A stretch of 64,000 bases of DNA from Owenia fusiformis. Its lineage: Eukaryota > Annelida > Polychaeta > Sabellida > Oweniidae. The notes under the pieces are model-generated. The model was not told the origin of the DNA. It searched no databases and saw nothing but the letters and a program-made list of their open reading frames with translations. The DNA lies in assembly GCA_903813345.2 (NCBI GenBank), contig CAIIXF020000001.1, positions 60,128,270 through 60,192,269 of the forward strand. The letters are read 5' to 3'. This document shows, piece after piece, positions 10,458 to 11,725 of the stretch. Within the stretch, counting starts at the first letter, position 1, and every line of letters starts with the position of its first letter. A program made the position numbers and the translations under genes.

Positions 10458-10462
10458 AACAT

Positions 10463-11720
10463 CACGATGCCCATGTCAAGCAGCGTGCCTACAAGGCACG
10501 CAGTTTGAAAGTCTGACAAACTGCGCGCATATTTCAAAATGTGAGACGGGGAGGACACGACTCCCAAAAAGAGCCAAAATACGAAAAATACAAGGTTAGT
10601 CTCGTTCCAAAGATAGTACCATTCTGTGAAGATGAACTTAATTTACTCATAGTACTCAATGTTTTTCCCGATGTAAACCTAGTTATCTCAATATAAGGGT
10701 CTTAAGTAACTTCTGTGTTCAAAATTTACAGTGTAAAGTTATATCTATGTCTTTTTATCGTCATTTGCCGTTTATTCAGCCATTGTGTCTGTGTATGCTA
10801 GAATATATAGGATCACTCCATCTGATTAAAACAGCAAAGTTTGTGTTCAAAACGATAATACGCCATAAACGTGATTTAAACATTTTTCTTGTCAAACTGC
10901 GCGCCTATATTCACATGTATTTCCCAAACTGCGTGCCTAATATTTCAAAACTGCTTGCCTATCCAAGCTTGTTTTGTATTATTAGAAAACATAAGCACCG
11001 TACAAGGCACATATGTGTCTAATAGTAGAACCCCATAATTGAAACACTATGAGAGTCCATCCACCAAGATGGTGATCTGAAAATAAATGTTTTTTTCGTT
11101 CCCAACTTAATTGTCACTTCTATTATACATTTTGACTTTCAATATGAAAATCTCATAAAATCTGACGATAAAGCAAAATTTCCAAAGCTACATCGAAAAA
11201 ACCTACACGTACCTCTGTAGAAATTCCAATGATAATATGTAGTTTTAATAGTGTATGCGCACAGATTGTAATTTCTGGCTAAAATAGGCGCGCAGTTTGT
11301 GGTTTATTTCTTTTTAATCTCCCGATTATCTGTTTTATTTCGAAATATTTTGAATTAAACATGATAAATGTGTAAGGAATTAAATATAAAACGAGTCTAA
11401 AGTATTTGTCATTTATGTTTAAAGTGCTAGATCGATTTACGTATAAATTCCCATTAAATCAGTGACGAAAATGCCATTAATCTGCTTATGTTTTAAAAGT
11501 AAGATTCATTTGCACACAGTTTTTGCTAGTATTTGCAAGATTCGTATATTCGCCACAGAATGAACGCATTGAACAAGAAAACAATGCAGGATAAATGTCT
11601 TTAAATAACGTTTCAAAATACAGACTCCAACTTAAATGATCCAATGTTCTTAGGCACGCAGTTTGTGATCGAAACAAACTGCGCGCCTAAGTAGGCGCGC
11701 AGCTTGACATGGGCACCGTG
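10463..11720. mobile_element. Non-autonomous DNA transposon with CAC termini and 5-bp target duplication
   Basis: 1258 bp. The left end CACGATGCCCATGTCAAGC and right-end reverse complement CACGGTGCCCATGTCAAGC begin TIRs of about 45 bp. AACAT flanks both sides exactly (10458-10462, 11721-11725). A 15-mer, CAAACTGCGCGCCTA or close variants, occurs at least nine times in both orientations inside and once in each TIR. There is no transposase frame. CAC ends and a 5-bp duplication are known for Transib/RAG-like elements and some hAT groups; which applies is undecided. Confidence 0.85.
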
Positions 11721-11725
11721 AACAT

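Follow-up and report, generated by a model that had tools for sequence, protein, structure and literature searches.

The window, meaning the whole 64-kb stretch of Owenia fusiformis DNA that was analysed, contains a segment that starts with CAC on either strand, is flanked by a 5-bp duplication and is crowded with copies of a 15-bp motif, which raises the question of which group of transposons it belongs to. The sequence-only reading had proposed a CAC-ended, non-autonomous transposon copy between exact AACAT duplications, and this description holds. A complete element of 1258 bp lies at 10463-11720 on the forward strand, delimited by its ends, its duplications and comparison with other copies, and comparison of the flanks places AACAT exactly at both 10458-10462 and 11721-11725. 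The element begins with CACGATG on the left and, on the opposite strand, with CACGGTG on the right. Its terminal inverted repeats of about 70 bp (10463-10531, forward; 11652-11720, reverse) are 79-81% identical to each other and share one layout, in which the heptamer is followed by a 7-bp spacer (CCCATGT), a 15-mer, an inverted 15-mer and a third 15-mer. None of five open stretches examined in the element matches a Pfam family (0/5). The segment looks like a copy of a non-autonomous DNA transposon, with terminal inverted repeats, a target duplication, many copies in the genome and no transposase of its own.

The 15-mer CAAACTGCGCGCCTA, searched with up to three mismatches, occurs at 11 sites in the window, all 11 within the element, where 0.38 would be expected by chance and at most 2 were seen across 100 shuffles. 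The left terminal repeat holds CAAGCAGCGTGCCTA at 10477-10491 (forward; element position 15), an inverted site at 10493-10507 (reverse; position 31) and a third at 10517-10531 (forward; position 55). An inner cluster of three forward sites starting at 10893, 10925 and 10947 (10893-10961) lies within a presumed former intron 1, and a right inner cluster on the reverse strand (11254-11299) comprises a weak site at 11254 and another at 11285. Three further sites follow at 11651-11665 (reverse), 11675-11689 (forward) and, in the right terminal repeat, 11692-11706 (reverse). The positions first given for the motif were accurate to within 1-2 bases, with the weak site at 11254 as an addition.

Across the 498-Mb genome, a 29-bp end pattern allowing up to three mismatches gives 280 and 264 matches (544 in all) and its reversed control gives none, so that the family numbers some hundreds of copies. 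Among the first 30 loci, the window included, 23 are both-ended and all 23 carry an exact 5-bp duplication, the 7 one-ended loci being left out of this count. An extended set, from which alignments falling short of either end were dropped by script and L041, L116 and L123 were excluded by hand, has exact 5-bp duplications in 26 of 27 both-ended copies, the exception (L118) agreeing at 4 of 5 bases. With L092, L132 and L133, each exactly duplicated, the total reaches 29 of 30. The GC content of 26 duplications is 21% vs 34.6% for the window, and no fixed motif was seen in them. Nineteen full copies differ from their consensus by 0.9-5.5% (median 2.1%), and the family is both young and non-autonomous. 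One copy (L005) contains a short repeat inserted at TTAA at element position 1151, which by eye is piggyBac-like in its duplication.

A sibling subfamily came to light through an old, divergent copy. Its three young copies (L136, L137 and L140) measure 1806-2043 bp, begin with CACGGAGCGGTAGGCAAACTGCGCGCCTA and are flanked by exact duplications of ATTAC, ATTAG and ATGTA respectively, so that 3 of 4 sibling copies have an exact 5-bp duplication. The layout consists of CACGG, a variable stretch and the 15-mer at position 15. The left end reads CACGGAG in all three young copies and the opposite end CACGGTG in L136 and L137 and CACGGAG in L140. Two older copies vary further: L139, with a duplication agreeing at 4 bases only, ends in CACGGCA and CACAGTG, and L138, of which the right end alone is visible, in CACGGCG. 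Within the lineage, then, the heptamer varies in its last bases. All three young copies are 73-77% identical to the window family over positions 15-500, a match that extends over 769-1258 in L136 and L137 and over 1014-1244 only in L140. The sibling interior begins with TTTTCAG and then codes for a basic stretch and a protein start that is conserved, and this acceptor with its first codons aligns between the window family (AG at element position 523) and the sibling (564). Comparison of the right part between the subfamilies gave no codon-phase signal (45, 50 and 38 substitutions).

The comparison of subfamilies also bears on the suggestion that the 15-mer is a subterminal site for transposase binding, a suggestion it upholds. 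Positions 8-14 change from CCCATGT in the window family to CGGTAGG/C in the sibling, and the 15-mer after these seven bases stays at position 15. Since CACG and the 15-mer persist between subfamilies while the intervening stretch varies, the 15-mer is a putative binding site. Among young copies the 15-mers diverge by 2.56% vs 2.60% elsewhere at non-CpG positions, i.e. as much as the rest, so no constraint is visible there; it is the subfamily comparison, rather than young-copy divergence, in which the motif behaves like a binding site. At L043:2861-3107 (C1 near 36.73 Mb) lies an old sequence related to the right end at 76% identity, and in it the CpG-rich 15-mers are eroded into GTGTGTC-like forms, a decay that suggests methylation of CpG sites and a lineage with a long history.

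Judged by its predicted protein, the sibling subfamily still contains part of the coding sequence of a gene of the YqaJ-exonuclease family, the most important lead here and one that the sequence-only reading did not anticipate. The remnant has no convincing match in Pfam. A genome search with it returns 81 matches with E values no higher than 1, some of which lie within long frames: 93% identity over 43 residues (4-46) in a frame of 268 aa, 88% over 57 residues (4-60) in one of 238 aa, and 49% over residues 1-57 in one of 559 aa (L141). With a hybrid probe, composed of the sibling sequence and an extension of the same protein family, the number of matches at the same E limit of 1 is 149, and the best is again L141, which is 57% identical over positions 2-123 and thereby bears the extension out. 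Aligned directly, L141 and the sibling remnant share 35% identity over 115 residues (E 0.002). L141 in turn matches L142 over 373 aa (29%, E 5e-39), an alignment that stretches just into the YqaJ domain, at whose first residues the L141 frame ends; L141 itself has no significant match in Pfam. In L142 the domain scores 27.8 bits with PF09588 (cut-off 22). Compared with the YqaJ-domain second protein of ISL2EU, the sibling and L141 show a remnant of that protein family, and the domain itself scores in L142 only. The same YqaJ-type protein family occupies frames of 1467 aa in L142 (C5:4849364) and 1438 aa at C11:10096046, and some 800 further residues of L142 could include a second domain.

The connection between this gene and the transposon ends comes from L141, where a left end of the form CACGGTG-N7-CAAAC lies 545 bp ahead of the acceptor. 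L141 has a motif of its own, CAAACGCTCC, at positions 15 (forward), 37 (reverse) and 66 (forward), with an inner copy at 453 (forward). The exon-1 ATG is at 88, the donor at 143 and the acceptor at 545, vs 523 and 564 in the short subfamilies. Markov resampling of the 1240 bp upstream produced the pattern CACGGWG-N7-CAARC in 8 of 20,000 trials, a post hoc figure because the end was spotted by inspection after the repeat had been noticed. Read at its left end, L141 would be a full member of the lineage. Capture of a YqaJ-family fragment might instead predate the divergence of the subfamilies.

Taken together, the window element is probably an internally deleted derivative of a longer, YqaJ-carrying cut-and-paste transposon that makes 5-bp staggered cuts, and it appears to keep parts of that transposon because L141 shares its layout of repeats, inner repeat, intron 1 and acceptor. 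In the parent, the left gene would start about 80 bp inside the end and encode a protein of the YqaJ-exonuclease family. The window copy would then retain the left terminus, exon 1 in broken form, the first intron with its inner 15-mers and the opening codons of exon 2, after which it would jump to the right end, the remaining gene having been lost. The layouts of the sibling and L141 place the putative exon 1 remnant at 10539-10572 (forward), with an ATG followed immediately by TGA, and the remnant of the exon-2 splice acceptor (AG ending at 10985) with its first codons at 10980-11000 (forward). The proposed end design comprises CACGRTG, a 7-bp spacer that would vary between subfamilies, and the 15-mer in two mutually inverted copies and a third one. 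A transposase would bind the 15-mers, cut at CAC and paste with a 5-bp stagger, and the YqaJ-family protein, by analogy with ISL2EU, would serve as an accessory nuclease. A catalytic transposase for the element was not found among the loci and relatives examined.

Usual hAT ends follow the consensus YARNG, and hAT elements often have subterminal repeats. The latter would suit an explanation of the window element as a non-autonomous hAT5-type element with 5-bp duplications that captured a YqaJ-family gene, as would the 138 matches to the hAT dimerisation domain in the genome; the end consensus is, however, violated at base 3. hAT5 is a recognised hAT group with 5-bp duplications, and this length is the sole feature in common with the present element in what was available of its description (PMC12730594). 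Unlike in hAT5, no hAT gene is tied to the ends in the loci examined. Scanning of 39 of the 138 PF05699 loci (19 of them on the 3' side only) found two hAT matches near an element, both otherwise explained: at L041 and L050, other copies of the same hAT stop at their own boundary ahead of the element, and at L043 an old element copy adjoins the hAT gene. The element ends were also absent at all three loci scanned of the four that match DUF4371 (PF14291). The hAT attribution raised at the outset for its 5-bp duplications thus drew no support from either set of loci, and this explanation is improbable. Two hAT neighbours were considered as partners and rejected: the hAT adjoining half an element in L050 ends at its own boundary and was taken as a coincidence, and that of L033 and L034 has its own ends. 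An abundant hAT family accounts for L035, L037-L043 and L045-L048, with dimerisation matches mostly over positions 16-82; by eye its copies have a common TAGAG-like 3' end, and it is unrelated to the window element.

The vertebrate signal heptamer is CACAGTG, one base from CACGGTG, and CACGGTG marks one or both termini of the window family, of L141 and of two of the three young siblings. On this resemblance the element could be taken for a Transib/RAG-like non-autonomous copy, its CACGRTG being a RAG1-like heptamer and its YqaJ-family fragment unrelated cargo, and the CAC-starting ends and 5-bp duplications are indeed those of Transib and the RAG-like elements (ProtoRAG, RAGL), as far as the consulted parts of PMC7204232 and PMC1852546 describe them. 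However, the 21% GC of the duplications is set against a preference for GC reported for ProtoRAG, Transib and RAG in an excerpt of PMC8289069, and against the GC-rich sites favoured by the Transib family hopper in Drosophila according to part of PMC3276498. At positions 8-10, where protostome RAG-like ends read AAA according to the section of PMC7204232 consulted, the present lineage has CCC, CGG or TAT, without an A-rich block, and the uniform CACGGAG left end of the young sibling copies departs from a RAG-type heptamer as well. The subterminal 15-mer array and the presence in relatives of a YqaJ-family gene, not RAG1L or RAG2L, are further differences. A RAG1 profile gave no match in the genome, with the control genomes silent too, and no match was obtained with a Transib probe, a single motif run without a control genome, which recovers HzTransib at 7.6e-18. 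Membership in Transib/RAG, as first envisaged, is unsupported and quite improbable.

It is similarly hard to see the element as an ISL2EU (PHIS) transposon with an aberrant duplication length: that group of animal DNA transposons is the one described with a YqaJ-domain second protein in the parts of PMC4482050 and PMC9179366 consulted, which recalls the YqaJ-family gene in the relatives here, but its 2-bp AT duplications and ends usually beginning with GG, as given in the same portion of PMC4482050, differ from the varied 5-bp duplications in 29 of 30 copies, the CACG ends and the subterminal 15-mer array. A locus with ISL2EU-like DDE fragments recognised by eye (L122) is uninformative here because the element is represented there by a 46-bp end joined to a LINE.

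Taken in combination, the ends, the insertion footprint and the cargo match no transposon group in the comparison. Given the mismatch with ISL2EU, Transib/RAG and hAT5, the element is filed as non-autonomous, within a YqaJ-associated lineage of DNA transposons that is left unplaced. In open-access papers, Repbase being outside the scope, no description of such a lineage was found, and four spellings of the element end retrieved only papers that are unrelated by title; the suspicion of an undescribed family is plausible, and its novelty provisional given that scope. A bolder proposal, which is possible but rather doubtful, is that of a group-level new eukaryotic cut-and-paste transposon with signal-like ends (a CACGGTG-like heptamer, a variable 7-bp spacer and a family-specific motif that forms an inverted pair and an inner array), 5-bp duplications of varied sequence, a YqaJ-type exonuclease gene about 80 bp inside the left end and a motif array in the first intron. 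Should this hold and the transposase prove RAG1-like, the group would count as a second RAG-type transposon, in which a nuclease takes the place of RAG2 as partner.

In the portions consulted of PMC4482050, PMC9179366, PMC7826175 and PMC10225492, ISL2EU is the sole named YqaJ transposon. YqaJ domains are among the most expanded in a clam, where they are termed endogenous viral elements (PMC7826175, in part), and among the contracted transposon-linked families in a scallop (PMC10225492, in part), and on these partial accounts the numbers of YqaJ-domain genes in molluscs would rise and fall with transposon load. A YqaJ gene tied to a transposon with a RAG-like end design and a different footprint would point to another origin for such genes. 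Such a link would also add a nuclease-plus-transposase system to set beside ISL2EU and RAG, and the ends would form a natural series with a varying spacer between constant outer bases and a constant motif.

Several longer or mixed loci were considered as autonomous partners and set aside. The long copies L001-L006, L091 and L092 are window-family elements interrupted by other sequence, and L093, in the sequence covered, consists of a right part (752-1258) that continues into a LINE. Probes 900-1150 bp inside the right end match the short element in 17 of 20 cases, the other three being L091-L093, and the further right-end probes L094-L096 all match it, L096 as a short copy. Left-end probes match it in 13 of 15 cases (L103 over 60 bp only); in L098 and L109, the two that do not match, 257 and 772 bp of left-end sequence persist in the part read. 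L025 and L028 consist of a 108-bp right end next to unrelated sequence, and L122 was discarded since its 46-bp element end is fused to LINE ORF1. Within the copy at L091 (1700-4000) there is a large minisatellite-like expansion of low complexity that is open in several frames. L122 (C2:33321029-33331000) is a repeat graveyard, with fragments of a Mutator-like transposase (weak, E 0.021), of an ISL2EU-like DDE gene recognised by eye, and of a DNA polymerase of type B (E 2.5e-7). L124-L129 (C5, C7 and C11) are LINE copies with long ORF1-like frames (437 aa in L124, 395 aa in L125), of which L125-L129 have five near-equal search scores.
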